Assembly (NCBI GenBank): GCA_037176885.1
Contig: JAWWNJ010000201.1
Coordinates: 62,001-126,000 of the forward strand
Source of the DNA: Favolaschia claudopus
Taxonomy: Eukaryota > Basidiomycota > Agaricomycetes > Agaricales > Mycenaceae
Direction of reading: 5' to 3'
Length of the DNA: 64,000 bases
The translations under genes and the position numbers were made by a program. This document shows, piece by piece, positions 6,491-52,837 of the stretch; positions within the stretch are counted from its first letter, which is position 1, and each line of letters opens with the position of its first letter. The notes beneath the pieces were generated by a model. The model saw nothing but the letters and a program-made list of their open reading frames with translations, did not search any database and was not told where the DNA came from.

Positions 6491-6529
6491 TTGTTTTCAA
6501 GCTCTGTATCCTCAATACTGACGATGGGG

Positions 6530-7556
6530 GTGTGTGCGGGGGACGGCCGCTCTGACCGACGAGGATGGGGCGCGGAGACGATTCTTCGTCTCCCGCCGCT
6601 CCGCGTGGGCTACAGACACGGCCGAACCGTACGCAAAGGACACCGAGGGTCGGAATGAGACCCCGAGCGACCCAGCGTAAGATGAAAAGAAAATGAGGGA
6701 ATAGCGTGAGCGATGGGCGGGTGGGTGACAAAGAAACTGCAGATGTGCGAGGGAGGAGGATGATGAGCAGTCGAGGCAGCAGCGGACACGACGGCAAGAA
6801 AAGAGAGACTTGACAGCTGTCAACGGAGATCAACTGTCAAGTCTACTCTCACACGACTACCTTGCCTATCACTCAGCCGCACTCACAAGCTCGTCACGGC
6901 TGAGCTCACAGCAAGGTAGGTCTGTGTGATCGCTAGCCCTAGAAGGAAATGAGAGAAGCTGATTTTTGGGGTGTGTGCGGGGGACGGCCGCTCTGACCGA
7001 CGAGGATGGGGCGCGGAGACGATTCTTCGTCTCCCGCCGCTCCGCGTGGGCTACAGACACGGCCGAACCGTACGCAAAGGACACCGAGGGTCGGAATGAG
7101 ACCCCGAGCGACCCAGCGTAAGATGAAAAGAAAATGAGGGAATAGCGTGAGCGATGGGCGGGTGGGTGACAAAGAAACTGCAGATGTGCGAGGGAGGAGG
7201 ATGATGAGCAGTCGAGGCAGCAGCGGACACGACGGCAAGAAAAGAGAGACTTGACAGCTGTCAACGGAGATCAACTGTCAAGTCTACTCTCACACGACTA
7301 CCTTGCCTATCACTCAGCCGCACTCACAAGCTCGTCACGGCTGAGCTCACAGCAAGGTAGGTCTGTGTGATCGCTAGCCCTAGAAGGAAATGAGAGAAGC
7401 TGATTTTTGGGGTGTGTGCGGGGGACGGCCGCTCTGACCGACGAGGATGGGGCGCGGAGACGATTCTTCGTCTCCCGCCGCTCCGCGTGGGCTACAGACA
7501 CGGCCGAACCGTACGCAAAGGACACCAAGGGTCGGAATGAGACCCCGAGCGACCCA
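6530..7556 (+). repeat. 441-bp tandem repeat, 2.3 copies
   Basis: The unit starts GTGTGTGCGGGGGACGGCC and recurs at 6530, 6971 and 7412, an exact 441-bp period; the third copy breaks off at 7556 after 145 bp. The copies are nearly identical. Each full unit contains a 10-bp inverted repeat GACTTGACAG/CTGTCAAGTC around a 17-nt loop (about 6809-6846 and 7250-7287), and a smaller stem AGCTC/GAGCT near its right part. The right part of the unit (6727-6912) returns once more at 12665-12853. The whole therefore reads as left end, right end, left end, right end, left end, 5.1 kb of other DNA, right end. Confidence 0.9.
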
Positions 7557-10489
7557 ATGGAGCGAAAGCTCTAAGAGTCGAAGACTCGCGCGAGGGAAAA
7601 GTGACGAACCCGAGATCCCAACAAGAGCTGAGCGAGAGAAATGGAATCAGGTGAGATGGACCAGATGCAGTGATTAACTGATATAAAGAGATGATGTGGA
7701 ATGGGAGTGAAGCGAGATGATCTTGATCCCAGACGAGCTCGCATGATTGGAACGGGAAATATCTATAACTTGCCGAGTAAGAATTATCTTGAGCTAATTG
7801 ACGAAACCTTCGACGTGATCGAGCTTTGCCATGTTGAGGAGAAAGCGCTGTGACAGAATGCAAACCGTGGGTGATACAGCAATGGCGAGTCGTTGATACT
7901 GAAATAAAAATTGACGGAGAAAATCTGAGGATTCCCAGCAAGATGAATAGCGCGAAATGATGAGGATCCGTTCGGGCCGAGAGGCGGATCCGGAGCTCTA
8001 GGCAGATCTCGAATTCGTATAATCGCAAGACTATCTTGCCGGTCATGAGGTCGCAGCATCTCGATTCAAGTATGAGTTCACATTCCACGCGTGATCAAGG
8101 CGCAGCAGCAGAAGAGTTTTAAGGGTTGATGATTTGCGAATATGATGCGCCGGAAATAGAATGTTGTGTCTTGACGAGTGGAGCCAGGAAGAGCATGAGC
8201 CGTAGCGGCGTAATAGGACATCAATGAGAAGTGAACGTCAAGATCACCCACAAGAACGAGGGGCAGTTGAAGTGAGGAATAGGGACGGATGTGTGAAAGC
8301 CAGGAGCTCTTGCGACTCTGTGAGATGAGATGGTCATTATTGATCGACATGGTTAGCGGATGGCCGCGAGATGTGATGCCGCATGATAGTCGTAGAATGA
8401 ATCGAGGAAACTGACGATCCTGCAGAAATAGTGAGGAAGAAAGGAGGTTGTACAGCGTCGAGTGAACGCATGCCAAATGTTGGATCGGCGAAGATACTAG
8501 AGTCCCATGAGGACAGTGCACTGCGGGGCAGTAGAATCGTTAGAGCCTGGTTGATGGCCGGCCGATTTTCTGTGGGAGAGGGTACCGGTCCATGCGAGAC
8601 GAGAGGCAAGAGGAGATTGAACATGAATGTAACAAGGTGCAGATACCGACAAAATTGTCACGGGCCTCGAGCCAGCGAATGTCAATCATCAAGATGAACA
8701 ATTGAGCTGATTCGACGCCACCGCGTGGAGAATGAGGTGCGAAGGAAAATCTGCATGATGCGGGCATCGGAACCGGTGACCCAACATCATTGCAATAGAG
8801 ATGAGAAGATGGAATCCAAGGCAGATCCAAGGCGCGCGTCACGGTAATCCAGGTGTCAGATTTTGCAACGAAGAAACAAGGTGCTGAGAAGATCGACAGC
8901 ACACGCATTGAACAGTCGAAGTAGTGTCAATAGAGAGAGACTGGGATGGGATGTGCACATGAATTGCCATGTATGCCGAAAAGGAAACGAAAAGGAAATC
9001 AGCCAACACCTCGACGCCAGTCGTATAGCCTCGAGCCATTACTGGTACAAAAGCACACGATTTCCCACATTAAATAGGACTGCTCCAGCAACCGACAACC
9101 TAAGTAGAAGAAATTACGCTCACGACGAAAAGGAGCGTCAGCGCTTGCACGGAGACTGGATAGTCAGCGAGGACAATTCTCTAGGCGCGAAATGCCTCAA
9201 CAATTGAGCAATCTCGAAAAAGATATCCCCAGCGAGTCCAGCACGGTAGCGTCGGATCGCCGGTAATGAAAGTAGAGAGGTGAGAGTGACGAATAAAGTC
9301 GTCCACAGAAATAGAACAGCACGATAGTGTGCCAGGCGTAAAATGATATGTCTCGGTGAAAGGACGTCCGTGAAGACCAGCGCATAAACAGCGAATCACC
9401 GAGAAATTGAGAGCGAAAAGAAACAGAGACAATGTGGCACAAAGCGGTGGACTAGAAAAGAACAGAAAAGATTGCGCTGAGCACGAGATGTCCCATGGAG
9501 TAAATCGTTACGATAAGGATATGGCCCTCAGAATCAGCGTGATGACCCGAGACCGAAACGGAGGTGGAATGGAAATGAAGATGTATGTAGGGAGACGAGG
9601 AAAGTGGCGATCAAAGCGATCCACAAATTACTGTGCCCGGGCGCAAAATGCCTTAGCAAATCTACCATCGCGACGGAGGCATCTCCGTGAACCCCAGGAC
9701 ACGAGCATCAACGCGTCATCAGGTTGGAGGAGAAAAACATTGAGGAAGTGGCAGAAGCAGGGAAAATAAGGTCAAAATAGAAACCAGAACGCTGGGTTGC
9801 CCCAACGATGGTTGTGCAGTGACAACAGCAAATTTTCCCCCTCGACGGAGTTATCTCCGTCGAGCCCAACATATCAGCATCAAACCACCGCCAGATTGGG
9901 GTAGAAAGAGAAAGACATCGAGGAAGGAAAGAATGAAGAGAGATGCGACGAACGAAGAGAAATGAGGTCAAATAGGAACGGAAAATTGTGTTGCCCGCGA
10001 TGGTTGTGCCCGCAGCAACAACATGTAGGAAGAACAAGAATAAATGTTAACATACGCGCCGAAGAACAGGTGAGCTTGAGGCAGTCCAGGAAAAGAGGTT
10101 GATTAGGGTTGAAGCTGCTTGAAGATGGAGTGGAGAGTGCGCAACCGCACCAGGTAGGGATGAAGGTACGCGTCCGCACCGGGTCACGATGGAGCCAAAA
10201 TGAAATGAGCGCGCAGAAGCGCGAGGAGGGATGGAGAATCAGCGCCGAAGAACACAGGGAATGCGATGATAACGAGCGCAGTTGCACAGAGATGAAAAAT
10301 CATAGCGCGAAAGAGGTGCACGGATATGCGATAAGGAAGATGAATGCAATCGTGCAAGGACAAAAGGTGGGTCAGAAAGGAGTGGATATAGTAAGCGCCG
10401 AAGCAGGAGGAGGACAAGGCTGCATATGAGAGGCACTGGGTGCAGATGTGTGTAAGCATGATGAAAACTAGTGCGAGGAGGGTGGAAGA
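7557..10489. other. Non-coding interior of the long element, no gene seen
   Basis: About 2.9 kb with overlapping open frames on both strands, none with introns, conserved motifs or family resemblance. The plus strand is rich in GATGA- and GAA-type words, which depletes stops on the minus strand and explains long spurious frames such as 7492-8088. A word built on GACGGAG..CTCCGTCGAG recurs near 9673 and 9843. I see no RNA gene. Confidence 0.5.
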
Positions 10490-10762
10490 AGGCCCCCGGT
10501 CACTACCATACAGGTCCGTAGGGTAAAATTCCCGGATTTTCGACTGATTTGCTCTATTTTTTGGCATTGATGGCGCCCTAGAGGAGTCAAAAAAGGTGAT
10601 TTTTTTCTGGAAAGTGCGGGAAACGCTTAGTTTAGAGCAGCTGCGTCGGCCCAGCTATCCAAAATCTCGCTTCCATGGCTGGTTCGCGAAATAGACCTCT
10701 GAAATTGGCCGTTGTTTTACTCTATGAAACCTACGGACCTATATGGTAGTGACCGGGGGCCT
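10490..10762. mobile_element. hAT-type MITE (273 bp, 8-bp target duplication)
   Basis: Inverted termini AGGCCCCCGGTCACTACCAT at the left and its complement at the right match over about 31 bp with one mismatch. The flanks are GTGGAAGA at 10482-10489 and again at 10763-10770, an exact 8-bp target-site duplication. Known: 8-bp duplications are typical of hAT elements. It has no coding capacity and sits inside the long non-coding element, so it arrived later. Confidence 0.88.
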
Positions 10763-10839
10763 GTGGAAGAGGTGAGGATAAGGCGTCCCGCGAATATTGA
10801 ATGCCGAAGCAAGATAGATCGAATGCATGGTATGCACTG

Positions 10840-11290
10840 GAAGATGGACAGTGTACCGCGGTAGATGATAGAGTGCCACAAGAGTGCATCGTCATGTAAG
10901 GAGAGATGGGCGGCATCCCGCGATGGATGATGGAGCACCGAAGCGCGAGATGGGGGCATCGTCATGCATGGATAGATGAGCGGCGTCCCGCGATGGATGA
11001 TCGAGTGCAGGAGCACGAGATAGAGGTGCATCGTCATGCATGGAAGATGAGCGGCGTCCCGCGATGAAGGATGGAGTGCAGGAGCACGAGATGGGGGCAT
11101 CGTCATGCATGAATAGATGGGCGGCGTCCCGCGATGTAGGATGGGGCGCCGAAGCGCGAGATGGGGGGCATCGTCATGCATGAATAGATGGGCGGCGTCC
11201 CGCGATGTAGGATGGGGCGCCGAAGCGCGAGATGGGGGGGGGCATCGTCATGCATGGAAGATGGGCGGCGTCCCGCGATGAAGATGTACA
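10840..11290. repeat. ~70-bp satellite, six copies
   Basis: The word GGCGTCCCGCGATG recurs near 10912, 10982, 11052, 11122, 11192 and 11266, a steady spacing of about 70 bp. Each unit also holds CATCGTCATGCATG and a GAGCACGAGATGGGGG-like stretch. The last units are the most alike; the first is divergent. A seventh, decayed copy may start near 10785. Minus-strand frames across it (repeats of the type MHDDAP) are products of the tandem array, not genes. Confidence 0.9.
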
Positions 11291-12664
11291 TGAATACGGA
11301 GGGCGTGGAATGGAAGCAAAACACGATGACATTAGATAATGAGATGAACATGTTACGCGTGGCGGTGGAGGACATCGATAGAAACGGCCAACGCTGGTAT
11401 ACGGCGATACCCACAGGAGAGCCCCAAAGCGGCTGCGGGGGCCAGTGGTTATGGGGGCATAAAGTACACGAATCTCCGATATGATGAACACATTAACGAA
11501 ACTGAAACACAATGTATGGCGAAGCTCAGATGTGTCAGGTCGAAACACACCTTGATGACACCCACAGCAGCAACAGTAACCTGAGACGCCAGCTGCATGA
11601 TGCATGGGAGCCGAGTGCAATGGAGAATTAGAATATCACACCTCGGTCGTCTGGCGACATCATACAAGAGCTGCAATGTTAAAATGGGAGAGCTGACAGA
11701 GCTCTCCGGGGTCCGGACAACGGGAGCCCCGAGGAGACGAAATGACAGTCAAAGATGAAATGATCATGAAAATGAAGAGATGAAACAGGCAAGGCGCTGC
11801 GAATCGCAGCCGCATCATATGAAGTGCCATAGACATCGTCATGATGGAACTAGAAAATGGACAGGCATGGAAAGAGCACCAAGACGGGTGCCCTAGTCCC
11901 CGATACAAAAGAAGGTAATGAATGAAATGAAAATATAAAGGCAAACGCCGTCTCGGCGACATCGTTCCAGGGCATCGCACCGAAATTCAAAGGAATATCG
12001 GTGAAGAGTCAGAGATAGAATCAACGAACGAGTGAGACGAGGAGAGAGCCTTCCTGAGGCAACACGAAGCGGAATAATTATGCAGGTCCGAGTGCAGCCA
12101 CGGGCCACGACCGCGAAATCCCCGTACCTCGATGCAGGAGAAGAAGGGGAGAGAAATAAAGTAAAATGCAAGGCGAATGACGTGTCAGCGCCGTCGCTCC
12201 AGGGCTTCAATGTACAACATTAAAGTGCCAGAGGGACTCCTGTGACTGACGGCCCCGAAACGGACAAGCGAAAAACAAGATTGAGACAAGTAGTGACACA
12301 CCAAATCAATGGCTTTCAGAAGACCCCATAATTTCCCGAGCTTTGAGAGATATTGACAGACGCCCTGTTTGAAATCGAGGCAATAACGCGTAGTCTCCGT
12401 CGGACAAAATCAATAAGTCGCGGAGAAGGAAGGGGAGACAACATTAGCGAGATATGGCGAGGGTATGAATAAGTAGCGTGACCTGTTAGAGCGAGCTGTG
12501 TCAGCTGAATTGAGCTTTTGGGTGTTCCATGACGCGGTAAAGGCGGCAGAAACAGCATCGTGTCCAAAGTCCGACATGAAGTCAAGACGCGCCCGACGTG
12601 AAGTCAAGGGCCGGAGTCCAAGAAGAGATGGGCTGTGAAAGAAGACTAATGAAGTCCAAATGTC
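11291..12664. other. Non-coding interior continued, no gene seen
   Basis: 1.4 kb without a supportable gene. Open frames on both strands (for example 11188-11484 plus, 11660-11980 minus) overlap and have no family resemblance. Confidence 0.5.
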
Positions 12665-12853
12665 TTGACAAAGAAACTGCAGATGTGCGAGGGAGGAGGA
12701 TGATGAGCAGTCGAGGCAGCAGCGGACACGACGGCAGGAAGAAAAGAGAGACTTGACAGCTGTCAACGGAGATCAACTGTCAAGTCTACTCTCACACGAC
12801 TACCTTGCCTATCACTCAGCCGCACTCACAAGCTCGTCACGGCTGAGCTCACA
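12665..12853 (+). repeat. Detached right end of the 441-bp unit
   Basis: Matches 6727-6912 and 7168-7353 nearly base for base, except for a 4-bp insertion (GAAG) before AAAAGAGAG. It includes the 10-bp inverted repeat GACTTGACAG/CTGTCAAGTC. Similarity stops at 12853: the tandem units continue GCAAGGTAGG, this copy continues CGAGGGC. Confidence 0.85.
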
Positions 12854-12886
12854 CGAGGGCTTCGTACGTGATCCCCAAGCGTCAGC

Positions 12887-13168: not shown

Positions 13169-13239
13169 ATGTTTGGAGAGTTTTCGGTTGATTTCGGTTG
13201 ACAATTAATCGTTCGGATGAACCGGACATACGGAAAATG

Positions 13240-14136: not shown

Positions 14137-14140
14137 TGTC

Positions 14141-15834: not shown

Positions 15835-16377
15835 ATGGCCCTTCCAACACTCAACTACACAGATGCGGACCGTCAGCTCCTCGCCGAGCATATTGAAGAC
15901 CCCGTTGAAGAGTCGGACAGTGTGAAGGCTCAGGAATCTCGAGCGGTATGTGATTCAAAACTTTCTTCAACTGAACTTTTGTGCTTATTTGGTAAAACCT
16001 TTCAGCAGGTGTAGCGGTGGGCCCTGACCCATTGTTCACACTCAATAGTAGACTCCATATACTCATCCCGCGATCCATGTGATTTCCTATTTGGGCCGAA
16101 GCTGAAGTGAAAAGTTTCTCGACTCAAAACATTGGTGAATTTCTCGGTTTCCCTGTTCACGCCCTGCTATGGTGCGCTCGGCCTAAACACCTCCAAACAG
16201 GTCCCATCAGTGATGCGATCAACGATGTCTCAAATCGGGGCCGGGAAAATTTTCAAATTACATACTATGTACCTCTCTTGGCTCACTCAGCCTCACTCTA
16301 TGGGAATCCTATGCGAACATCTGCCCCCCTCGTTGCAGGCTGTTTTCAGTAATAAGGTTGTACTGCACCTAGAATAG
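15835..16377 (+). CDS. Small spliced gene convergent with the NLR-type gene, unknown function
   Basis: ATG at 15835 opens an exon of 37 codons (MALPTLNYTDADRQLLAEHI...) rich in acidic residues, ending in a strong donor GTATGTG at 15946. The next acceptor is ambiguous (TTTCAG, CAGCAG or GTGTAG, 16004-16019); the last one gives RWALTHCSHSIVDSIYSSRD. A third part ends near 16377. Open frames on both phases there (KSFSTQNIGEFLGFPVH; VPSVMRSTMSQIGAG) prevent a firm model. The gene runs tail to tail with the NLR-type gene, about 100 bp apart, and is duplicated with it (start at 50023, minus). The product would be a small soluble protein of a family I do not know. The shared fate suggests a linked pair, but nothing in the sequence shows a functional link. 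Confidence 0.5.
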
Positions 16378-16481
16378 GCTTTTTGGGCCAGTTTACAGGC
16401 TGTAAACCGACAAATGCGGTCGGCCGACGGACTCGAGGCTCAAAATAAAACATTTTTGCCATTATTATTGCATGCAGTATA

Positions 16482-19400
16482 TCAATCCTGAGCGGCCCTG
16501 ACCCAATCAATCCCATCCACGAAATTAGTAAGGTCAAGCTTCGTAATATGTTTGCCAATGCCTAGCTCTGTACGGGGCCATAGCAATCCTTCACGGTAAT
16601 AAGGAGGCACCCAGAGCAAAAGCTCACGACTTGGTCCTCTGATCCAGCCACCAGACTGTTCGGACCACATTTCTATATCGTTGAGCTTCTCCATCTATCG
16701 GAAATGAAGTGAGTGTGAATTTCTGGGGCGCAATACTCACATCCCATATCCGAATCGTGCGATCCACCGACCCCGAAGCAAGCAGTGATCCCTGGGACGA
16801 AAAATCAACTGACCACACATCACCAGTATGGCCCCTGAGCGGGTGACCAACAGCTACACCAGTGTCCGTTTCCCATACACGAACAGTCCGATCGGCGGAT
16901 GCAGAAGCCATATACTGGCCATCAGCGGAGAAGGCCAAAGACCAGATAATACCGTGGTGAGCCTGAATGGGCGGATAAAGGAGGCACCCGGTCTCCTGGC
17001 TCCATACATTGATCAAACCGTCTCTGGAGCCGACAGCCTTGCAACGGCCATCATGCGACAATGCTACGACCCATGGCTGATCCACCTCAGTGCCTGAAAT
17101 TGTGGAGGAGTGAACCGGAGTAAAATGGCCCGTCCAATTGTTGTTCAAAGTGCAGGATAGCAGCTTTCCCGTTTTCACGTCCCATTCGCGAACATGCTTG
17201 TCGGAGGATCCTGAGCTAAGTCGGTCACCGTCGAGAAATGCAACCGACCAGACTTCGCTGTCAAAGACGGGGTCAAAAAGTGTCGAGGCAGATTCCGTAT
17301 CCCATATTCGTATGGAGCCATCAGCTGAGCCCGAGAAGATCCTGCTACCATCATTGGATAACGTCACCGACCAGATACCTCCGTCATGTCCAGTGAATGG
17401 TCCCCTTATTGACTCTCCAGTAGCAGTATCCCAAATACGTAGGCTTTTGTCCGCAGACCCAGTTATGAACGAGCGACCATCCGTAGAGAAGCATACAGCC
17501 CAGATAGCACCTGTATGTCCCAGTAATGGGCCCAAGACGAGGCTCCCATCGAGCGCGTCCCATAAACGTATGTTTTGATCGCCAGATCCAGATAAAATCC
17601 AGCGTCCGTCCAACGACCAAGTCACACACCACACGTCAGCTTTGTGCCCGTTTAATACAAGGATGGGTGCTCCCTGCTTTGTCCATACCCGCACCGTCTT
17701 GTCAGCGGACCCGGATACCACCCGGGTATCATCTTCAGAGAAGTCAACCGACCACACTGTCCCAGAGTGGCCTACAAATGGGGGACACATCGATTCTGCT
17801 GTATGACTGTTCCAAATGCGTATCGTCCGGTCATCTGAGCCCGAAGCAATTGACTGGCTGTCAGAGGAAAACTTCACAGACCAGATAGCTCCTGAGTGAT
17901 CCCCAAAAGGTGGTAGGATTTGCCTGGCATTGACACAATCCCACATGATGAGATGTTGATCGGAAGAACCGGATACTAGACGCAATCCGTCACGGAAGAC
18001 ATCAAGGGCCCAGACAGCACCGTGGTGACCTCGCAATGGGTCACAGACGGCAGCCCCAGTGGCCAGGTCAGAAATCAAAACCGTCTGATCTGCGGACGCT
18101 GAAGCCACTTGCTTGCCGTTGGGCATCGCAACTATTGCTCCAACAGCTGCATGGTGAGTCTGAATAACATTCAGGATTGGTGGCCAAGTGGTCTGTTCCC
18201 CTTGACTGACGGAAAAAGTGTTCGGGAACTGCTCATGATATTGGGCCCGAAGAGGGGAACGGGTAGGGCAAAATGGCAATGCTGAGATATAGATGTGTGG
18301 TGCACTTTCAGACATTGGCTCAAAAAATGTCCGTATGAACCTCAACCCGTCTGCCGCAAAAAAAGCGAGATCTTGATCACCATGTGCCTTGAGAAGGGTT
18401 TGATGCCAAATCACTGAACACAAATCTTTGACACACCTTCAAATATCTTTCAGCAACAATTACAGCAGGCATTGAAACCTGGAGATCATTGACGGCACTA
18501 AGAACTTCGAGCCAAAAAAGGAAGTGGTTGCGAAAGAATGTTCCCAGACAATGCCGCAGAATTGGGGAAGCCGAGCGTTCAGATTCTGCTGCCTGGAGGT
18601 GATCTGCCCAAGAGCGACAGGAATACACCAAAGCAGGGGCCAACTTGCAGTCAACTGGGGACTGAACATTCTGGATATGAGAGGTGATGAAACCCGAGAT
18701 ATTGAATCGCAGGTTCGATGCCATGAGAGAAAAGCAGCGCGCCGCCAGCCGACAGTGTATGTCACATGGGTCAATGAACCACGGCTTAGTACCACAGTAC
18801 CGAGCACTGGTGAGAAACTCGGTGAGCGAGGGGTGAAGGCTGCAAATTGGTTCATGCTCCTCAATGCTTAGCAAGCAAGCAAAGCGGCGGAGAGTGTGAA
18901 GGCATGGGAGTTGGTCTGGAACCTCTTTGAATTCATCAAGAACTTCAGAGGGAAGTGGCTGCCAAACAAGCAGGGCAATCCCCATCCACCACTGGAAATC
19001 CTTGACAAATGTCCCATCAAACCACAGCCCAGATTGCTGCAACACAAGTTCGTAGAGTGCATGAAGAGGCGAGACCACCACTGAATCCACGTCATTCCCA
19101 AGGACAGTTGCGAGCCGCTCCCGAGGATCCTGCCCAGTTTCAATGAATTTCATGGCAGCGGCGCACCACGCAAAAAGGCCTGACGACCTTACGCAAAGCG
19201 CATCAAGGTTTTCCTCCCCAGGCCAGTCGTCAGCAAGCTTGAGCAAAAGATTGTTTGCGACTATTATCCTGCAATGCACCCGGAAATAATGGGTTATGTC
19301 TTGAGAATTGCTCGTAGTGTCTGTGCGTAAACCATGTTTGAAAACGGTGCTGGTCGTGAACGCCAATTTGATATCTATTTCGGGCCGGCTGGTGACCAGT

Positions 19401-21273
19401 ACCCTGACAAACTTGGGCAATTTGGGAAAGTCATTAACAAGGAGGTCCAACACTGGCCGTCGCGATAGGTCATTCCCGAACTCGTCCAAAGCATCCAATA
19501 TCACCACAATAGGTCCTTCGGTGCCCATATCATGTGAGCGTAGAGGCATAAGAACCAATTGATGAAACTGGTCAGGAAGAGGCAATGCCAAGACCCTGGG
19601 ATTGCTCAGCAGACCGTCGGCTATGGCAGCTCCAAGACGAGAGTCGAATAAGCCAAGCTGATAGCTCAAGTTCCTGACTAAACTGCTTTGCTGTGTGCTG
19701 GCCGCCCGATTGAAAAAGTGGATTGCACCAAGGCGAGACATTCCAGCCATCCTGCTCGCAATGGATGCGGCAAGGGCACTTTTGCCCGACCCTGCAAGGC
19801 CGCCAACCCACAAAATGGTCTCGTTAGATGGAGTCAACAGCCACTGGGAGATAAAACTGAGAATCTCCGTTCTTGTGCCTGTCAAGCATTGGTCGCGCTC
19901 CGACAAATCATTGTCCGCGGGCCGCAGCCTCTCAAGCATTATGTTATGAACTGTGGAATGATCAGCACTGCTATGAAGCAAAAGACAATTCCGACCAAAA
20001 CGATCAATATTGTTGCTCATTTTCATCGAGACCAGCGCTGTCTGAACATTGATAGCTGTGTTCAGCGAAGTTCTTAGATTGTCAAAAGCTTCCATGAAGT
20101 TTTGGATTTTGTCAGATGGATCAACGAAAGTTTGATGAAGCATGCGCCCTGTGGAACAATAAGAGATGCCCAAGGCAGAAATTGACGAGTACCTTGAAAG
20201 CCCTGATTGCAGTATTCCCGAACGAAAAGCGTGCACTCAATTGTTTGCTTGGCTACAGCAAGGAGAGTATCTTCCAGCAGCGCGACCTTTTCCGGATCAG
20301 TGTTCAGAGCTTCCACCGCCGTATAAATGTCGGTCATTGTCGCGACCAGATACGTGACTTTCTGATCCCTATCAACCTGACCCTGAATAACCTGTTTTCT
20401 TTATGAGCACACAGCAGAAAATCAAGATCAAGATGACCTGATACAGTGAGCTGGTCACAGACCACGCAAGTTCGATATAAGGATGCACCTGGGAGTTGAA
20501 GAAGGAAATTTACTCTGCATAAATAACAGTGACAAGGCAACGTACTTGAGACAAATGATTGAGTACATTCGTGATCGAGCTCAGCTTCTCTGAAAGCGAT
20601 TGAAGGGCGGAACGCAACGTAGATGTGTCGGCATGCCGGAATAGCGAGCTGCCAGCAGAAATTGTGTCCGACGTGAAAGGAGTGGATTGCAATGCCTGGT
20701 TGGCAGACTGGATGGACGCTGACCCGGCGAGCAGCGGATTTTTCAGACACACTCGAAACGCTAGTTGTCCGGCTGGAACGGCTTTCCGACCGGGAACTTC
20801 GAGGTTCACGACGATGACTGGGATCAGGGCTTTGAACGACAATTTCATGCCCACTGAAGCCCAACTTACGTTGTGGCGCTTCGGACAGTCGCAACGTCGC
20901 ATCGGCCGTACCAATGCAGCGGTCAAACGGGAGGGACTTGGTCTTTACCGAGAAAGACAGTGAGATTTGGTGGTTTATGGACATTAATCCTCTGCAAATT
21001 CCTGTGAGGATAATGCTGATGCGAAATAAGTATAGTACTCACAGCGTGAGCGTGTGGTTCCAGACGGGATTGTCGGTCCGAACCAGCGCTGTGGGGGTGG
21101 AGATTGTGCGGTTCGGCAGAATTACCTGTACATAAGGTTTAGGGGGCTTTTGCAGCCAACCGTGTGCCATGGGGAGACTGCGCGCATAAAGAACTGAGAT
21201 AAATGAAAATGAGGCAACCTGCGAGTTCGAAGCGGTCGAAGGGCTCACTCTCGAGATCAACGCAGAAAGACAT
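16482..21273 (-). CDS. C2-NACHT-WD40 NLR-type STAND protein, intact, nine exons, 1463 aa
   Basis: Exons (minus): 21249-21273, 21043-21193, 20870-20991, 20546-20817, 20438-20488, 20193-20391, 18437-20148, 16741-18387, 16482-16694. All introns are GT..AG, 44-57 bp; the total is 4392 nt, divisible by three, with every phase consistent. Domains: a C2 domain (about residues 5-120; PKPYVQV, TDNPVWNHTL); a helical linker; a NACHT NTPase with Walker A GGLAGSGKS (Lys about 396) and Walker B VVILDALDEF (Asp about 492); about 11 WD40 repeats (about 905-1390; GHSGTVWSV..VRVW type); and a C-terminal tail RGPSRELLLWVPPYYREG. Known: such STAND proteins are the NLR-like receptors of filamentous fungi, linked in some species to non-self recognition and regulated cell death; WD40 repeats are the sensor part. 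Start: ATG in TCACCATGT. Inferred: functional receptor candidate. Partner and ligand unknown. Confidence 0.93.
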
Positions 21274-21307
21274 GGTGAGTGTAACTTGATGCTGTGCAAC
21301 GAACAAC

Positions 21308-21610
21308 GAAAAATCGGTCATTCCGAGGCTTTTCTGGGTGCCGAAAACGCGTTTTCCCGGCCGAGGGATTTCCCCTTGGAGAAGGGGAAAAAAATGACCC
21401 ACCGTGGGAATCTCGACCGTTTTGCCATCACCCTCGGAATGGAGAAGTTCCCGCAGGTGAAAAATGGGTCATTCCGAGGCTTTTCTGGGTGCCGAAAACG
21501 CGTTTTCCCGGCCGAGGGATTTCCCCTTGGAGAAGGGGGAAAAAATGACCCACCGTGGGAATCTCGACCGTTTTGCCATCACCCTCGGAATGGAGAAGTT
21601 CCCGCAGGTG
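21308..21610. repeat. 151-bp tandem repeat, two copies (inner edge of left arm)
   Basis: Units 21308-21458 and 21459-21610, nearly identical. Each starts GAAAAATCGGTCATTCCGAGG and ends with TTTTGCCATCACCCTCGGAA then GTTCCCGCAGG. The two ends match those of the 141-bp repeat, but the middle (CCCTTGGAGAAGGGGAAAAAA) is different. It begins exactly where similarity between the two arms stops. Confidence 0.88.
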
Positions 21611-25547: not shown

Positions 25548-25975
25548 TTTACAGCTCTGACATATTTCCAGCTCAAGTCCTGCCATGCCAACCCAACCAC
25601 GGCGAAGAAAAGAATTGCAGACCTTGAAAGCAAGGTGAAGGAGGCCCAGGAGGAGCTGAAAGCTGCTGTGGCTCAATCAGAGGCAAAGGTTCGCAAGATA
25701 TTGAAGAAGAAGCGGGAAGATGAGCGGGGATGGTCGGCGCGGGTTGCGGAGGCAGAGCGGCTGCTCAAGGATGCAGAGTACTGGCGGGTGTGGACTAACG
25801 GCGAGCTAAAGACTAAAACAGATGCTTTGAGCCAGCTTCGAGCGGTATTGAAACACACACAGCCAAAAGAGGTGGCTCTCAATGCCATTTCCCTCGGTCC
25901 ACTGCACGAAGAAATGTGTGACGACGCTGTAGATAATATATATTTCGCTACTTACTTTACAGCCTCTCGTATTCA

Positions 25976-26097
25976 TAGTGAGTGTATACACTCGGAGGAA
26001 TGCACGTGGGAGTCATCACTGTGACTCATCGCGTCTTTTCTCCTCACCACCACCACCGGGCGCGTTCCTTCGCCCGTGCTCTCGTTTTTTTGGTTGT
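25976..26097 (+). repeat. Ngaro split direct repeat A1
   Basis: 121-122 bp, same as A2 (35968-36088) with one substitution near its start (GGAGGAATG against GGAGTAATG). Contains the palindrome GAGTCATCACTGTGACTC and a run CACCACCACCACC. Confidence 0.93.
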
Positions 26098-26359
26098 TTT
26101 CTTTCCCCAATGGCCAACGACGCCCCCTTGCCTTTCACTGATGCTCAGATGGCCGCACTTACGGCCATTGTGGCCCAGGCCATTGCCGACAACTCCGCCA
26201 ACTCTTCGGGCGGCTCCGCCTCGTCGTCCTCTTCGAACGCCGCGAATGGCAGCGGAAACGTTACGGTCCCCACTACCAATGCCGCCGGTGAGCTTGACAA
26301 TTTCGCTTCCGCCTCCTTTCGGTCCCCCACGATGTGGTACCGCCGTGTCAAGCTGGCAC

Positions 26360-26840
26360 TCTTGTGACTGCCGCTTCATTCACTGTGCATCTGTATTCCA
26401 GACAGGGCAGTAGTAGACTAGTGTGGGTGAGGAGAAGACAGCCGAAAATCGTAGCCGGCTGATCTCCTGGCCGTGGGGCGACCAGATGCGCGAGAAGGCA
26501 CCCAATCGCACCCACCCTACATACTGCCCTGAAACCAGAATACAGTATACCTGAGTAGCAGTGCGATGCTCAACTTGAAGGGAAACTTGAACTTGAATTG
26601 GTTCGAAGTGAACCACGCAAGACATCATTCCTGGAGCCCTGTGTAAAGAACAAATTAAGGGTGAGGTGGGTGGGCAAAAGAAAGATCTTGATACTCGTAC
26701 GAGAGGAAGTCGACTGAAAGACCTTGAAGGGGTCGTGCCGTGTGTCGGACATGGAAGTCAGGAGGAAGAGAGTCATATCACCCGTCACTCAGCTAGTCAC
26801 AAGATCATGCACTCCTTTCGCAGGCTCAGGAGTGCCCCCA
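26360..26840 (+). mobile_element. Short Helitron-like element, 481 bp (first of a tandem pair)
   Basis: Starts TCTTGTGACTGCCGCTTCAT at 26360 and ends CAGGAGTGCCCCCA at 26840. The first 145 bp (26360-26504) and last 166 bp (26675-26840) are shared with the next element; the 170 bp between are not. The right end has a perfect 8-bp stem GCACTCCT/AGGAGTGC with an 11-nt loop (26809-26835), followed by CCCCA. No coding capacity. The features (5'-TC, subterminal hairpin, no target duplication, tandem arrangement) resemble Helitrons, but the 3' end is not CTRR. Confidence 0.6.
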
Positions 26841-26999
26841 TCTTGTGACTGCCGCTTCATTCACTGTGCATCTGTATTCCAGACAGGGCAGTAGTAGACT
26901 AGTGTGGGTGAGGAGAAGACAGCCGAAAATCGTAGCCGGCTGATCTCCTGGCCGTGGGGCGACCAGATGCGCGAGAAGGCACCCAGAGAGCAAGACGCC

Positions 27000-29150
27000 A
27001 GGCGAGGGCATCTGAGAGACCGCGACTAGCCCAAAAGAAGGCGGCTGGATGAAATGAACAGATGTCGCAGGTGGACATCCACTCTAGATGTGAACACAAG
27101 TATCTAGATTCTAGGAGCGTACGGAAACATATGGAAAGAACTTGAGAGGAGATGTCCGACCCGAAATCATGATTTATGAGCGGGATTGAGAATGATGAAT
27201 ATACAAACTGAGTGGCGGCCAATGTTCGAGCTCGGAGCGGCACAGGAGATTACTTGACTCGGCGTCAGTCAAGCTGTATATTAGCACTTTTCGCGGCCGT
27301 TTGGGTAAAAGTATCCGTGTATGTTGAAAGCGAGACCAGGATCAAGTTCAAAAAGCAGCCCCCATCAGAGCCCCGGTGTCATAGTAAGTGCAGGCAGCGT
27401 AAATTTTGGCAGTTAATTTCATGCGTACTGGATCGGCGAAGGAAGCTCAGTGAAGCAACCGGGAGCACAGCTGTAAAGGGTCACTAGTTCAGTAGTTGGA
27501 ACTCAGAGAACTCCGAATTCGATAGTAGCGGAATCACAATAAGTTGAATCAACCGTGGGATCCACGGCTCGCGTGGCTCATCGCAAAACAAGCAGGTCCA
27601 CCAGAACCAGGACGAACTCGTAATACAGTCGCCGGGAAACAAACTTGAATGTCACCGGGTTGTGGAGACGGCAGCGCGTATGGAAGTCCGAGGACCAGGA
27701 ACACTGGACTGAGGTCGTCTTCTGAGCTTTGAAGCAGATAAGCTGGAACGATGCCTCGAATACGGCATGAGCTCAAGAATGTAGGCTCAGATCTCCGAAT
27801 CCGAGGGGGGAAGTAGCCTCGGAGTGAGTTCCGCCGGAAAGAGATGGCATTAAGAGAACACGATGCGTTTGAATTAATGGATAGTGAGTCGATGTGCACA
27901 AAGCGCATAGCGCAAGTTCGTTGAATGGGCCTATAAACCGAGACAGCGAGCGGTTCATAGACATAGACAAGCGCGAGGTTGAGCCTCAGAGCATCCGTAT
28001 CCGCGTAGGGTCACAAATCGAGAGCAACGAAACTCAATTGAGTGTGTCAGAGTACGGCCGGCTCATAGTGCGAGCGAGAAGCCCAGGGATAATATAGAAG
28101 TGATGGTAATCGGAATCGGAATTGATTCAAATTGTAGCGCAAGTAGCAAGTTTTCGAATAGATTTGACATAAGTAAGATTTCACGCCCTAAGCGTAACAG
28201 AAGCACAGTAAACGGATTCATGGAGGATAGTTGATCGCCATTATCCGCTCATTGAGGGAAGCTCGAGTGCGTTGAAACAGAGATAGCGGTCGCGCAAGCA
28301 GTGGCGGGTAGAGGAAACCCGCGCTCATAGAAGCCCCGAACGGAGCCCCACACTGGCCGTCGTCATCCCAAATCGATACGGCAAAACGCATCATGCCCCT
28401 GGAGGAAGCGTGCGGAAGAGAGGTATTGGGATCAGTGGTGAGCAGTCGTCGATGGGGCACAAGTTGCGTAGCAGACGAGGCTGGTCGAAGCCAAACAGCT
28501 AGATCATATCCGGACCATCGGGCGAAGCAACATCGTACATAACCCATTGAGGTGTTTCGAGGAGCCGCTGGGTATTTAAATCCGGTACAGCAATTCCATG
28601 TTGACACAATCAGAGCCGGTAGGAGAGTTCAAGAAGCGGAAACTTGGATGTGGATAGTCCAGACAGAATTGAATCAATCATACACGGTTTGCATGGCGCA
28701 TCGACTATATGATCATGATTACTCATTGTAAACACTGAACAAAGGTTCGGAAGGAATCTACAATCAGCAGAGCGTTGTTCTAGCTCCGAGATACTGTAGG
28801 ATAGATCAATTTGCGATGAAACAAGAGCCACGCCGTATCCGCTGTATGCGGGACATGAACTGGATGGAATAAAGCAAGCGATGAGGCAGAGATACGCCAG
28901 TATACCGTATCAGTAGAGATATCAAAAGACATGCAGAGTTTGGACGCCATGATCCAAGTAGACCGTGGCAGAGTCACACAGAGATGCTGAGACAAGGTAG
29001 ACGTAGTCGCGTAGACGGAAAGGAAGAAGGACACGTATGACATCATGGGGAGTAACGAGGAGGCGCCTTAGGTGAACAGCGACGGGTGCAGGTGCGGCAT
29101 AGAATTGCAACACACACATATGTGGGCGAACAATTCCAACGACTCCGAGT
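27000..29150. other. Interior of long Helitron-like element, no gene seen
   Basis: 2.1 kb of sequence with overlapping open frames and no family resemblance, similar in composition to 7.6-10.5 kb. Confidence 0.45.
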
Positions 29151-29182
29151 CCTAGATGTCATGCTTGGCACGTGTAGGTGCA

Positions 29183-29315
29183 GGTCAACGATTTGAAGAT
29201 TCAGAAAGCGGAATCGCAAGTGTAGAGTTATCGAAAAGCGACCAGGCGCCGGTCAACGATTTGAAGATTCAAAAAGCGGAATCGCAAGTGTAGAGTTATC
29301 GAAAAGCGACCAGGC
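29183..29315 (+). repeat. 68-bp direct repeat, two copies
   Basis: GGTCAACGATTTGAAGATTC recurs at 29183 and 29251. The 68-bp units differ at only two or three bases, which marks a recent duplication. Confidence 0.9.
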
Positions 29316-29559
29316 GCAGGTTCGAGATTGTAAGATTTGACCTGGATGTAATGGAGAAGTGGGGAGGCGTAACGGCATGATCTGATTGCGAAGCGTAACC
29401 TTAGGCAGTGCATGATCGCTTGCAGGTATGGAATGGTAAACCGGTGGAGGCATGAATTTGACCGAAAACAACTGGAGAAGCATGCTAAGTCGCTAACTGC
29501 GGGATGTACCGCTCGGGTATGGAGTCGTGAAGAGAGTAGGCATGAAATCAAACGGGATA

Positions 29560-30360
29560 TGATGGGAAAGCGTCCAGAGACACTGGGCCTCGCAGGATGC
29601 AGCCACTCACGGGTATGGAGTGATGAACAAAATGAAGTCATAGAGCGTGGGGGTGACGCTGACCTTCGCGGCCATGGAATCGTAAATAGAATAAAATCGT
29701 AGAGCGTGCGGATGCGCTGACACTTGGGGAAAGGTAACCGCTCGCAGGTACAGCATCTTAAGTAGAAGTAGGTATGAAGATCAAGAGGGATATAATCAGA
29801 AAGCGTTTGTAGATAGCACCTTGGGGGTATGGAATCAGAAAGTATTCGGAAAGTAATTGTAGAGCGTACGTAGACGCTGGCACGGCATCGGAAGACGTGA
29901 GTAGACACTGACCCTCGCAGAATGTATCCGCTCGCGGGTATGAGGACGTAAACGGAATATCGTCGTACAACGTTTGACGCTGGGCCTCGCAGGACGTAAC
30001 CTGGAAACGGAATATCGTCGTAGAGCGTTCGTACTTAGACGCTGGGCCTCGCAGGACGTAACCCGGAAATGGAATATCGTCGTAGAGCGTTCATAGACGC
30101 TGGGCCTCGCGGGACGTAACTCGTAAACGGAATTGAGTCGTCGAGCGTTCCTTGACGCTGGGCCTCGCGGGACGTAACCCGTAAACAGAATTGAGTCGTA
30201 GAGCGTTCCTTGACGCTGGGCCTTGCGGGAAGAAACATATAAACAGAATAGAGTCGTAGGGCGTATGTAAACGCTTGGCCTCGCAGGATGTAGCCCATGA
30301 ACGGAATAGAGTCGTAGAGCATTCGTAGACGTTGGGCCCGACGGGGGATCGTAAAGCGTA
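29560..30360 (+). repeat. ~58-62-bp degenerate satellite
   Basis: The word GACGCTGGGCCTCGC recurs near 29976, 30038, 30096, 30153, 30211, 30269 and 30328, each followed by GGACGTAACC-like text and preceded by GAGTCGTAGAGCGTTC. Weaker copies extend upstream to about 29560. Minus-strand frames across it (repeats of the type ARPSV) are products of the array. Confidence 0.85.
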
Positions 30361-31816
30361 TGATGCATTTCAACGTAGAACCCTGCGGGTATGGAATTGG
30401 AAGTGAATGTAGTCGGCTCGAAACCTAACTTCGCCTTGGAAATTGATGTTCACTAGATGCAGACAGGAGTATTAGATAGACGTAGGTCGCATTTCCGGAT
30501 AGATGAAGATAGAAATGAAGTCCATAAACCAACCATAAACGCATGCAGGCGTGGAAGATATGGAGTCCATAAACGCATGTAAGCCTGGATTAAGCGGGAT
30601 ATAACCGCAAGCATAAAACCTGACCGGATGTAACGGCTCAACGCATGTAGGCGCAGGTATGAAGTCCATAAACACATGTAGAGTAGATGTAGACGTGGCA
30701 GAAAACACTTGAGCTCCTCCTCAGATCACGTGCCAAACACGTCGAGAAGTAGGTTGTCAAGCAATATGGCCGGAAAACTGAGCGCAATCTCTTTGAGAAG
30801 GTTGCGAACGAGGAGTCAAAAGAAAGATCTTGATACTCGTACGAGAGGAAGTCGACTGAAAGACCTTGAAGGGGTCGTGCCGTGTGTCGGACATGGAAGT
30901 CAGGAGGAAGAGAGTCATATCACCCGTCACTCAGCTAGTCACAAGATCATGCACTCCTTTCGCAGGCTCAGGAGTGCCCCCAACATCGACGCCATTGTGA
31001 ACGGCACCTTCGAAGCCGACGACCTCCCCAAGCTCTCCTCCATCGCCGCCGCTGCCCCCGCTCCCCCCGTGCCCATCCTCTTCCACCCGACCTCTGGTGT
31101 CGCCGCCCCGGAACAACCAGAGGAGGCCCTCGATTGGTCGACCTACACCGGCATCCGCTCCCTGATCGACACCACCAACGGTGGCGTCGCTGCCGCCTTT
31201 TCCATCTACACTAGTCAGCTCATGGACTTCACCACGCAGTACGAGTGGTCTGCAGTCTTACGCTACCACTACGAGTTCATTCGCGTGCGCATGGCGGAGA
31301 ACTTCCTCCCCACTCGCTGGGTGACGCCTGATCAGGGCCTCGTCTCCACCAGGCTGGTTCGTTACCCATTGCCCCTACCATCTTCCTCTAAGCGCAAACG
31401 CGACCTTGCTGAGCGCCTTTCCGAGCCCGGCGCCCCCGTATCCCGTCCGAAGGTCGATGAAACTTGCTACAAGTTTCAGGATCCTGCAGGTTGTCGCATG
31501 GGTGACAAGTGCTCTCGTCGCCACATCTGCATTGCGTGTCAGGGTGCCCACCCTTCACATGCGTGCCCACAGAAGCGGAAGTAGGATGTTTGGGGCAAGC
31601 CGACCGAGTCCGGCCTCTGCCCCACTCCGACCAACCCTTCGGTTCCTCTTCGTCCACTGGCTCCTCGCACCCCACCCTCGCTATCATCCCTTTTACATAC
31701 TGCCCATCCTTCAGCCCATTTAATACCACCTCCCCCCTCCCCATCCCAATACACACATCTCCTTCCCCGTTGCCCCCAGCTCTGGTCCTCGTGTTGTTAG
31801 CTCACTTAATCCCGCT

Positions 31817-35009: not shown

Positions 35010-35917
35010 TTCGTGGTATACGCCGGGTGTACGGGGATGCAGAACGTAAGGAGCGACTTCCAATTACGCAACCCGTCCTCGCCCAAATCATTGCCTCCCT
35101 CTCCGACCCTATCTCTCTTCCGCGGGGTGTTTCTCGTGAGCTAGCCGAGACTCTCCGAGCCGCCTACGCCCTGGCCTTTGCAGGTTTTCTTCGCTGCGGT
35201 GAGATCACCTATGACTCCTTCGATGGTGCTTTCAATCTCAAGCGTCGGGACGTCATCGTTCAAAACGATGAGTATCTCACTGTCGACCTCCCCGCCTCTA
35301 AAACCGACCCTTTCCGCTCTGGAGTGCGCATCACTATCGCAAAAACTGGCTTCTCCACCTGTGCCTACACCCTTCTTCGAGCCCACCTTAATAAGCCAGG
35401 CAAGCCCGACGACCCGCTGTTTGTAGGTCGGCGTACCCGCGACAGCACTGGCTATGGAGCCTTCTCGAGGAAGCTTTTCATCGACTGTTTGAAGGCCTGT
35501 CTCACTCATGTCGGGATCTCATCTTCGGGTTATTCGGGCCATAGTTTCCGTCGTGGTGCTGCCACTTGGGCCCGGCTCATTGGTCTCTCTGACCTCGACA
35601 TTCAGCGCCTCGGTCGTTGTACTTCCGATTGCTTCAAACTCTACATTGACACCCCACCCGATGTCATCGTGGCGTTAAGCAAACGCCTTCTCTCCGACCC
35701 CCCCACTCACTCAACCAACCTCCATGGTTGTCAACCCGGAATTGGTTTGGCGCGGAGACGATGCTCTGTAGCCGCACCATTTCTCGCTCTCTTGGCCTCA
35801 GCTCACTCTCCTCGCTGCCCCGGCAACCCCTCCTCCCTCGGGCTGCCTTGTCTTCCTGGGTTCCGGCCTGAGAGCGCTCGCTGCGAGGGTCACATCACCC
35901 CCTCACCGCAATCATAA
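34817..35917 (+). CDS. Ngaro ORF3: tyrosine recombinase (integrase)
   Basis: The frame from ATG 34817 (MRKYGADGASPYPASEA) overlaps the end of ORF2 in another frame; coding text of the same frame reaches back to about 34705 (LVAYFLWHGLAASTRGVN), so translation may rely on a frameshift from ORF2. The N-terminal core-binding part has AKTIKRYVGALKSFH. Catalytic residues of the family are present: Arg in AGFLRCGEI, His-x-x-Arg in GHSFRRGAATWA, and Tyr in CFKLYIDTP. The stop at 35917 lies inside repeat B1. The enzyme would insert the circular cDNA of the element by site-specific recombination. No break is visible. Confidence 0.9.
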   Translation: MRKYGADGASPYPASEAQLLEWAASLPPGCSAKTIKRYVGALKSFHTDLGYDSSAFQSRVLERVIRGIRRVYGDAERKERLPITQPVLAQIIASLSDPISLPRGVSRELAETLRAAYALAFAGFLRCGEITYDSFDGAFNLKRRDVIVQNDEYLTVDLPASKTDPFRSGVRITIAKTGFSTCAYTLLRAHLNKPGKPDDPLFVGRRTRDSTGYGAFSRKLFIDCLKACLTHVGISSSGYSGHSFRRGAATWARLIGLSDLDIQRLGRCTSDCFKLYIDTPPDVIVALSKRLLSDPPTHSTNLHGCQPGIGLARRRCSVAAPFLALLASAHSPRCPGNPSSLGLPCLPGFRPESARCEGHITPSPQS

Positions 35918-36274
35918 ATATACCACCTTTTTTCTTCCCTCTCTCAGCACGAGCTCGCAGCATTCCTAGTGAGTGTATACACTCGGAGTAATGCACGTGG
36001 GAGTCATCACTGTGACTCATCGCGTCTTTTCTCCTCACCACCACCACCGGGCGCGTTCCTTCGCCCGTGCTCTCGTTTTTTTGGTTGTCCCACCCGCCTC
36101 CCATATACATATTGCATGTACATATATTTAGTTCTGTAGTTTCGTGCAGCTTCGCGCCGACTTTGGGTTCCGGCCCGAGAGCGCTCGCTGCGAGGGTCAC
36201 ATCACCCCCTCACCGCAATCATAAATATACCATCTTTTTTCCTCCCTCTCTCAGCACGAGCTCGCAGCATTCCT
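35857..36274 (+). repeat. Ngaro split direct repeats B1-A2-B2
   Basis: B1 35857-35967 and B2 36164-36274 (111 bp each, TGGGTTCCGGCC.. to ..CAGCATTCCT) differ at about four bases. A2 (35968-36088) abuts B1 without a gap. Between A2 and B2 is a unique 75-bp stretch. This is the arrangement expected for Ngaro elements. Confidence 0.93.
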
Positions 36275-41905: not shown

Positions 41906-43603
41906 AGTGCGTGGCGTGCTAGAGAGAACGATGAGGAGGGGCAAACTTGCGACAATAGATACTCGTACCTGTCACTGTCGTGTCGATGGGCGCCAGATTA
42001 TCTGCCGCACGTTGAATTAGGTAGCAATAATAGTGATAGCGAATGCACATACCTCTGCTGATGTGTCCGCCAAGTGGATGACAGTCGTTGAACCGATCTG
42101 TTACCAGCGACTTGAGCTTGTGGGCGGAAAGAGACGCGCACCATTCTGCCTGACCACCGCTTCTCGTGGACCTGTCCAAATACCATCGTGCCGTTCTCTC
42201 GAGGTCTTGTCGAGACCAGAGTGCAGAATAGTGGCAGGAGAGCAGTGTGTTGACAAAACTTGGGCCTATCAACTGCGAGTCGTATCGGGATCGAATTCAA
42301 AAGAAATGAACTCACAGAAATCATATCCATAAATTTGAGACGAGCGAAAACATCCTGACTGAAAAATCAGATTGACATGAATAGAACCAGAAAGACGTAC
42401 ACAGGTGGATTCATAGCTTAGATGCCGACGCGTTGAGATGAGGACTAGGGGAAATAGGGTTAGCAGAGACCGGCGAAAAAGGAAAGAGACGAACGAATGC
42501 CTATCGAATGGAATGGAACCTCAACAACACATGTCCTTGCAACGCCGAGGTCAGGCAGGTAATTGACGAGTAAGTACACGCAGAGACTTACTGGTTAGAG
42601 CATGACCATGCTATTGAAAAGGAACGTCGAGTTCGCGAGAATGAACTTAAAAATGAAAGGTAAGAAAAAGACAATGTAGGAATACAAACGGCGCACCGGC
42701 GTCGATGAATGGATGAAAACCTGCCGAAGCTTACCCAAATGAGTCTAAGTGGAAGGGAGACCAAAACGCGAAACAAGTGAAGAGACTATCAGCGAATGCG
42801 AACAAATCGTGTATATATCTGTACTCAAGAATGTATCAGTAGGGCTCGTAACGCTCTGGATAGTGAACATACCAGCGAAAACATAGATCCTTCACATCCC
42901 AGCTTATAGCGGCATCGGATACCCATCGCGATTTACAAGTTCTGCCGTGGTGCGGTAGTTGTCGAGAGTAGAGAGAGACGATGACGCAGCTAGGATGGTG
43001 GAAGAAAGCACCAAGTGTTTCAAACTCCGACGATTCGATGACATCACTCACTCTTGCTCTCTGCGAAGATGGCCATTTTTGCGACTTGTAATATTTTCCA
43101 TGGAACCAGAGGAACGACTAAACACTATTCACCCAACGATGGAGCAGTCCCGTTGGCAGTGCGGCGAAATGACTCAAATGAGTAGTAATTGGGCGGACTG
43201 GCAATGGCAATGTAACAAAATAATAAATTATATATTTTTTGGGTCAATTTCTGCCGGCAGAGTGAGCATTTCCTTTTTCGGAGAAATTGTATCAGTTGAG
43301 GCTGCACCACAATACTATCGTTAGCTACCCACTGAAAGGCGAAGGAAATGGAAGAAAAAGACATTACTTGGTTATAAAAAAAATTAGGCAATGGGGGACC
43401 GATCAACAATGTAAGAGTAATATCATTGCATACCAATAGACCACAACACCATTGCGAGTTTTCAGAAATGTAGGTCCAGGTAGGGCCCCGACTATCCGGC
43501 ACCAACAAAATCCCCCTCAGAAACCCCTGTTTCGGCGATACCAGCCGCGCCCGGGTTTTCACTGGCTCACCCCTTGCTCGTTTTGCCACGTGATCTGCCA
43601 CGT
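41906..43603. other. Unassigned stretch, no gene seen
   Basis: 1.7 kb up to the start of the right arm. Frames on the minus strand near 41919-42330 and 43125-43601 overlap and have no family resemblance or splice signals. I see nothing else. Confidence 0.4.
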
Positions 43604-52701: not shown

Positions 52702-52837
52702 GGAAAAATCGGTCATTTCGAGGGCTTTAATTCGCCGGAAATAGCCTCAGATTGCCGAGGGTTTTACTGGGCGGGGCCATCGGCTTTAATCGGTCTGGCG
52801 ACCGATTTGCCATCACCCTTGGAATGGCGGGGTTGCC
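52702..52837. repeat. Single 141-bp repeat at outer edge of right arm
   Basis: Starts GGAAAAATCGGTCATTTCGA and ends GGAATGGCGGGGTTGCC. The left arm has two copies here; after this repeat the two arms diverge (GTCAATAGCG against AACTCGC). Confidence 0.88.

Follow-up and report, generated by a model that had tools for sequence, protein, structure and literature searches.

Within a 64,000-nucleotide stretch of the Favolaschia claudopus genome, contig JAWWNJ010000201.1, positions 62,001 to 126,000 (C201:62001-126000; hereafter the window), lies a pair of repeat units that form the subject of this report. A short unit of 481 bp (TCTTGTGACT...GTGCCCCCA; 26360..26840, plus strand) is followed by a long unit of 4142 bp in the same orientation (26841..30982), and self-comparison of the window shows that the two abut exactly at 26840/26841. 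Their left ends are 100% identical over 145 bp (26360..26504 = 26841-26985) and their right ends over 166 bp (30817..30982 = 26675-26840); we call the family with these ends family A. The pair interrupts an open reading frame, ORF1, for which the original prediction, made from the letters alone, had used the label Ngaro; its 5' part (26110..26359) breaks off at 26359/26360 and its 3' part resumes at 30983..31584, both on the plus strand. The coordinates, shared ends, abutment and terminal hairpin in that prediction are exact, as judged by self-comparison and folding.

Each unit ends in a hairpin with an 8-bp stem and an 11-nt loop (30951..30977; identically at 26809-26835 in the short unit), beyond which five unpaired bases lead to the terminus. 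Equally stable folds arose in 4 of 200 shuffles of the last 36 nt and in 12 of 200 of the last 53 nt. An asymmetric terminal inverted repeat of 10 bp has its 5' arm, TCTTGTGACT, at the very start of each unit (26360..26369, repeated at 26841-26850) and its complement just before the hairpin, 36 bp from the 3' end (30937..30946, minus strand, repeated at 26795-26804); among 20000 mock elements taken from the window, 6 had a match as long as this. The 3' terminus CCCCCA was correctly predicted not to be of the CTRR type, and the same holds for the two further families described below, which end in CCCCA, CCCCCA or GCGCCCA (family B) and in CTCACA (family C); a 5' TC is present in families A and B. 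No gene was recognised in the long unit: the long units contain only open frames of up to about 400 aa, for which no family-library scan was made. The unit carries instead a 58-bp tandem array of 6.7 copies (29947..30338, plus strand) and a 68-bp repeat (29176-29321).

The insert of 4623 bp is 3 x 1541, so that ORF1 is in frame once it is removed, the 250 and 602 nt on either side giving 284 codons including the stop. This arithmetic, already part of the original prediction, is borne out by empty sites elsewhere in the genome. The joined flanks (222 nt) match over their full length at all 40 listed places, the best 40 of 99 candidates, three at 100% and 37 at 97% identity, with matches of 222 bases at 38 places and of 223 at two. 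Because the joined flanks match uninterrupted copies end to end, the insertion, at GGCAC|ACATC, entailed neither duplication nor loss of target sequence. These uninterrupted copies establish one pair of outer borders, as had been expected of them; they are silent on whether the tandem arose in one event or two. The copies lack symmetric terminal repeats, and at the nine family A and three family C sites where both flanks were read by eye there is no duplication of more than 1-2 bases, with one exception on C136 that is taken up below. With respect to the target, 37 of 50 distinct left flanks end in A or G, and all 20 distinct right flanks have A or T as their third base (p = 3e-5, uncorrected for the 20 positions examined). 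Among these distinct flanks the target is neither the A|T of canonical Helitron1 nor TTTT|T, and at the window site it is C|A. Beside the interrupted ORF1, self-comparison also found direct repeats of 127 and 111 bp (25971-26097 and 35857-36274); we presume their order to be that of Ngaro split direct repeats, which would bound the interrupted retrotransposon.

A second locus of the same design occupies 6.5-12.9 kb of the window. It is composed of a 5'-truncated short unit that lacks its first 57 bp (6527..6910), a complete short unit of 441 bp (GCAAGGTAGG...CTCACA; 6911..7351) and a long unit of 5502 bp (7352..12853; open frames of at most 198 aa, no family scan), all on the plus strand. It had been predicted to be tandem, and this stands; the true left ends, which begin GCAAGGTAG, had to be corrected to 6911 and 7352, with 6527-6910 now recognised as a truncated copy, and the CTCACA terminus recurs at 6910, 7351 and 12853. 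The inverted repeat is 9 bp here (5' arm at 6911-6919 and 7352-7360; 3' arm at 12800..12808, minus strand, 45 bp from the end), a length matched by 8 of 20000 mock elements. The 3' hairpin (12815..12847, plus strand) has an 8-bp stem and a 17-nt loop, ends 6 nt before the terminus and was equalled in stability by 1 of 200 shuffles of the last 39 nt and 3 of 200 of the last 54 nt. The original prediction had been right to see non-autonomous, tandem, rolling-circle-like elements of one design at both places. It had also assigned them to a single family, and on this point it fails: self-comparison of the window reveals no similarity between the two loci, and they therefore represent two families, A and C, of one plan, with only the layout in common.

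Copies were sought across the 264.6 Mb assembly (460 contigs). All copy counts are lower bounds, as the DNA searches scored the best 40 of 221, 186, 920, 99 and 189 candidates, the Rep domain search the best 150 of 587 and the Rep protein search the best 150 of 297, while one further search listed about 100 places out of 209 and its reversed control gave 36. At least 40 left and 30 right ends of family A were parsed from fetched loci, and 54 right ends were found when up to 3 mismatches were allowed, against none in the control. In a sister family B (TCTTGTGACTGTCGC...), 91 left ends match exactly (control 0); for family C, again allowing up to 3 mismatches, there are 29 left ends and 22 right ends (controls 0). 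The ends are 100% identical within family A and 73-76% identical between A and B. Segmental copies apart, the borders of family A are constant while the flanks are unrelated. Because copies with unrelated flanks start and stop at identical bases, these ends are real termini, and the alignment of genomic copies thus upholds the predicted borders. In the flank counts repeated flanks were merged, one near-duplicate right flank was dropped (21 to 20) and the left flanks are those of ends with unaltered first bases; the regions upstream of some long units, e.g. C33:110033, C219:169854, C139, C128:451511 and C20:1296000, stand outside the family A reading.

The short-long arrangement recurs, and in family A its order is fixed. 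A left end directly follows a right end in 12 of the 30 parsed right ends, corresponding to 11 distinct sites (the left flank of C30 itself was not read). The upstream member of these 12 pairs is always of the short type, namely 481 bp in eight, 473 bp in two, 1084 bp in one and 5'-truncated in one (C30), and the downstream member matches the long unit in 12 of 12, with lengths of 4118-6252 bp. The "very different sizes" of the original prediction thus resolve, in this family, into a short unit, mostly of 481 bp, and a long one in constant succession. None of 13 long right ends has a left end behind it, as opposed to 12 of 18 short right ends; counting each distinct site once gives 0 of 10 and 11 of 13, respectively (Fisher p = 7e-5). 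Solo units are found at five sites, compared with 11 for pairs: short ones at two (C86/C27 and C137/C20/C128/C124) and long ones at three (C72/C14, C53 and C54). Such solo units are the products expected of stopping at the first terminator or of starting at the second 5' end. Judged by these arrangements, the short-long pair behaves as a unit, because insertion beside any resident end would also yield long-long tandems. As a separate observation, C18:55310-55345 and C18:26812 show a short-long fusion in which the 3' hairpin stretch between the units is seemingly inverted and shortened.

The other two families present related pictures. In family B, 28 of 62 loci have at least two left ends, spaced 452-495 bp apart in 27 of these; in the 22 of the 28 multi-copy loci that were read (together with 20 of the 34 single ones), the units abut exactly in all 22, in 16 distinct flanks. 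The second unit was read into at two of these pairs, one being a 4928-bp long unit (C14:2334689) and the other, on C75, belonging to a triple of 468 bp, 468 bp and a rearranged long-type unit. In family C, a left end lies immediately behind 11 of the 22 right ends, and the unit upstream is a complete short one in four, a truncated short one in four and a Rep-bearing element in three. The unit that follows is long in six and short in two (C201 and C72, a single insertion), with three unassigned (C279 and, twice, C20). For the other 11 right ends the nearest left end lies 5.2-6.7 kb away, and we therefore attribute these unfollowed right ends to long units.

The sequences of the paired members tend to agree with each other. 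At left-end position 61 the short and long units are the same in 12 of 13 family A pairs, and at position 87 in 10 of 11, C18 (minus) disagreeing; segmental copies are counted in both cases. On C172 both left ends carry two identical changes that are absent from every other row (n = 40). The member ends may have been equalised by exchange, or each short unit may have been remade from its long unit. Further inward (positions 146-230), the A and B long units agree at 65 of 83 positions and the short and long units of A at 27 of 70. The long type thus seems older than the A/B split, because this stretch is similar between the long units of the two families and dissimilar between the short and long units of A. 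The middles of the short units show only a weak likeness (0.44; the highest of 20 shuffles reached 0.38).

Helitron Rep domains are numerous in this genome, with at least 167 matches to PF14214 (best 150 of 587 candidates). On C101 a family C long unit is immediately preceded by an element whose last 65 bp are identical to those of the family and which carries an antisense Rep (PF14214, 91.2 bits) along with a DUF6570 domain (96.3 bits); on C26, C101 and C275 the Rep lies about 4333 bp from the same family C-type 3' end. As for family A, one place on C84 and two on C261 retain the long unit from position 401 up to its 3' end, and an antisense Rep lies 4356-4362 bp past the break. From these associations a Rep-bearing partner is supported for family C, and for family A there is a lead. 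Among the 145 of 150 listed Rep rows that were compared with family B, those of C38, C120 and C135 lie 3.4-5.5 kb upstream of family B left ends; they were rejected as partners, as no shared 3' end was seen at these three places. On C38 an inverted family B remnant lies there, and the C120 flank recurs at places without a listed Rep. In a separate observation, Helitron-type Reps of equal score occur at C83:13192, C129:13192, C194:13193, C286:9475 and C436:9899, three of them 13.2 kb from the contig end, and these could be telomere-linked.

Some other repeats of the window lie outside the two loci. The stretches 13033-21309 and 43603-52837 are two oppositely oriented copies of one sequence of about 8.3-9.2 kb. 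Their matched pieces are 98.3-98.6% identical, and one copy is flanked by tandem doublets of 141 bp (perfect) and 151 bp (98.7%) at 12886-13168 and 21308-21610. An inverted repeat of about 420 bp (53257-53672 and 60970-61392) is 85% identical, its arms 7.3 kb apart.

We interpret the pair as a two-part, gene-less rolling-circle element of the Helitron2/Helentron type that moves as a heritable composite by read-through of its first terminator, a reading to which we give a probability of about 0.65. A Rep-helicase supplied by an autonomous relative would nick the 5' terminus, peel off one strand and stop at the 3' hairpin, and the product would enter new sites without duplication. As the short and the long unit each have both termini, each could move alone. 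When replication began at the 5' end of the short unit, it would pass the intact 3' terminator of that unit and end at that of the long unit, and the tandem pair would thereby be inherited as a composite. The nick, the read-through and the use of a circle are inferred, as is the employment of a similar protein by family A. More tentative, and on balance doubtful, is the larger proposal that the short unit serves as a "launcher", at which initiation takes place and from which the long cargo is carried along, that the mobile unit is a fixed short-plus-long composite with routine bypass of the short unit's intact terminator and termini equalised by exchange, and that this arose in at least two families with unrelated ends. 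It would then be a distinct strategy of transposition and no mere by-product of nested insertion.

A number of observations weigh against the composite reading. The terminator of the short unit is intact, so any read-through must happen in spite of it. There is no 5' hairpin beyond chance in family A (97 of 200 shuffles equally stable) or in family C (196 of 200), and family C begins with G, not T. Within pairs, unshared changes occur on C65, C122 and C219. For 20 of the 22 family B pairs the reading of the second member covers no more than its first 42 bases or so, and of 20 fetched single family B left ends five have a right end directly before them and 15 have none; in family C the short-then-long succession was traced to its end at just two distinct sites, namely C201 (= C72) and C125. 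A family A long copy that lacks a few 5' bases is exceptional in having about 20 bp of its flank directly duplicated; it occurs twice on the minus strand of C136, 15.6 kb apart (154653-158853 and 139053-143253). Regarding the partner, the C26 and C101 Reps are identical and maybe reflect one event, a search of the 13 kb fetched did not locate a 5' end for the family C Rep element, and a 278-aa piece further on, with a putative helicase-like motif, has no match in Pfam or the PDB. A clean autonomous partner of family A was not found among the Rep-bearing places: those on C84 and C261 break at long-unit position 401, two share one flank and at least two of the three are one insertion. The place C38:1070379, tried as such a partner, was rejected, as only its last 69 bp match and it is a mosaic; the neighbouring 324-bp piece was also listed at five further places, where it stops at the border or one base beyond, and a dispersed fragment makes up the Rep piece.

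Alternatively, a short or autonomous element could already have been resident, and a long element could repeatedly have inserted exactly at its 3' terminus, with the transposase recognising that terminus and the pair never moving as such. The varied upstream member in family C (short, truncated short or Rep-bearing) speaks for such stepwise insertion, and consecutive insertion is the published reading of one maize pair (PMC2267711). However, it also predicts long units behind long units, of which there are 0 of 13 in family A and 0 of 11 in family C, and it sits poorly with the agreement of paired ends at positions 61 and 87; we regard it as unlikely, if still to be reckoned with. It seems improbable that the tandems arose by duplication, through circle multimers or unequal crossing-over, with later growth or deletion in one copy and spread by segmental duplication. 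Triples do exist (C75, and 6527-12853 of the window), some flanks recur across loci, and C122/C127 and C86/C27 look like segmental copies, but the flanks differ at 11 family A and 16 family B sites, most of the pairs read are therefore separate insertions, and the long type appears to predate the A/B split.

Finally, circular elements moved by a tyrosine recombinase (Crypton-like) or by another non-Helitron enzyme could likewise leave head-to-tail copies without duplication, by recombination of a circle. Elements moved by tyrosine recombinases, Cryptons among them, carry the target core as a short direct repeat at each of their borders. Here no common core repeat is present at the two borders, the hairpin and asymmetric inverted repeat have the Helitron2 layout and a Rep gene accompanies the family C 3' end, which makes this the most remote of the explanations considered. 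The Crypton reading was dropped, as was that of a terminal-inverted-repeat transposon. With pairs bounded by clean borders, solo copies, an empty site and a candidate partner in one genome, the termination, read-through and stepwise models give differing predictions that can be counted. Helitron stopping, overrun and tandem formation have so far been known largely from sequence surveys and from the rebuilt Helraiser. Were the pair truly the mobile unit, it would explain how gene-less rolling-circle DNA carries kilobases of repeat-rich cargo. Search programs keyed to CTRR ends and A/T targets would probably miss such families.

The layout had been predicted to be undescribed, yet it matches that published for Helitron2 and the Helentrons, in which an inverted repeat at the 5' end has its partner just before the 3' hairpin and CTRR is lacking (PMC3627910, PMC5148889, PMC4067079). 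Helitron2 has an asymmetric inverted repeat of 8-15 bp with its 5' arm 0-2 bp from the 5' end, comparable to the 10 bp (A) and 9 bp (C) that start at position 1 here, and shares the partner arm before the 3' hairpin and the 5' T of families A and B (PMC3627910). Its Rep gene is sometimes antisense, and it has one-ended cases with duplications of about 7-19 bp, which the duplicated-flank copy on C136 resembles (PMC3627910). Nevertheless, the 3' arm of Helitron2 lies about 20-30 bp from the end, as opposed to 36 (A) and 45 (C), and it has a 5' hairpin, absent here, and no initial G like that of family C (PMC3627910); its target lies between TTTT and T or C (PMC5148889), and there is no such site here. 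We take our elements to work like Helitron2, without strict membership, because the 5' hairpin and the TTTT target are lacking.

The FoHeli elements of Fusarium oxysporum are fungal relatives of Helitron2 with non-canonical ends, in some cases an antisense Rep, and a 3' arm 38-51 bp from the end (PMC5148889). That study also describes one triple tandem in Metarhizium and copies with several 5' termini and one 3' terminus; in those the duplicated part of the 5' sequence typically measures less than 200 bp and the 3' terminus is single (PMC5148889), whereas here the long element is recurrently preceded by a complete short one with its own terminator. The gene-less HINE/DINE-1 elements likewise have an inverted repeat near the 5' end, a 3' palindrome and internal tandem repeats, but prefer T-rich targets, and Helentrons carry an endonuclease domain (PMC4067079). 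Helraiser and Helibat have the 3' hairpin terminator, read-through, head-to-tail circles and insertion without duplication in common with the present proposal, and differ in their canonical TC...CTAG ends and in that no recurrent two-part composite is described in the accessible parts of those reports (PMC4778049, PMC5876387); for Helraiser, both the overrun of the 3' end and the formation of head-to-tail circles have been found experimentally (PMC4778049). The HELPO Helitrons of Pleurotus are also fungal, with a 3' hairpin, no duplication and a PF14214 Rep, but have CTRR-type 3' ends and AT insertion (PMC4289320). The adjacent maize Helitrons show exact head-to-tail abutment of two different elements, though in a single case (PMC2267711). 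Tandem or adjacent Helitrons as such have thus already been published (PMC2267711, PMC4778049, PMC5876387, PMC5148889). No report of a recurrent short-plus-long composite was found in the accessible portions of the open-licence literature, and the recurrent short-then-long order at 11 distinct family A sites looks new.

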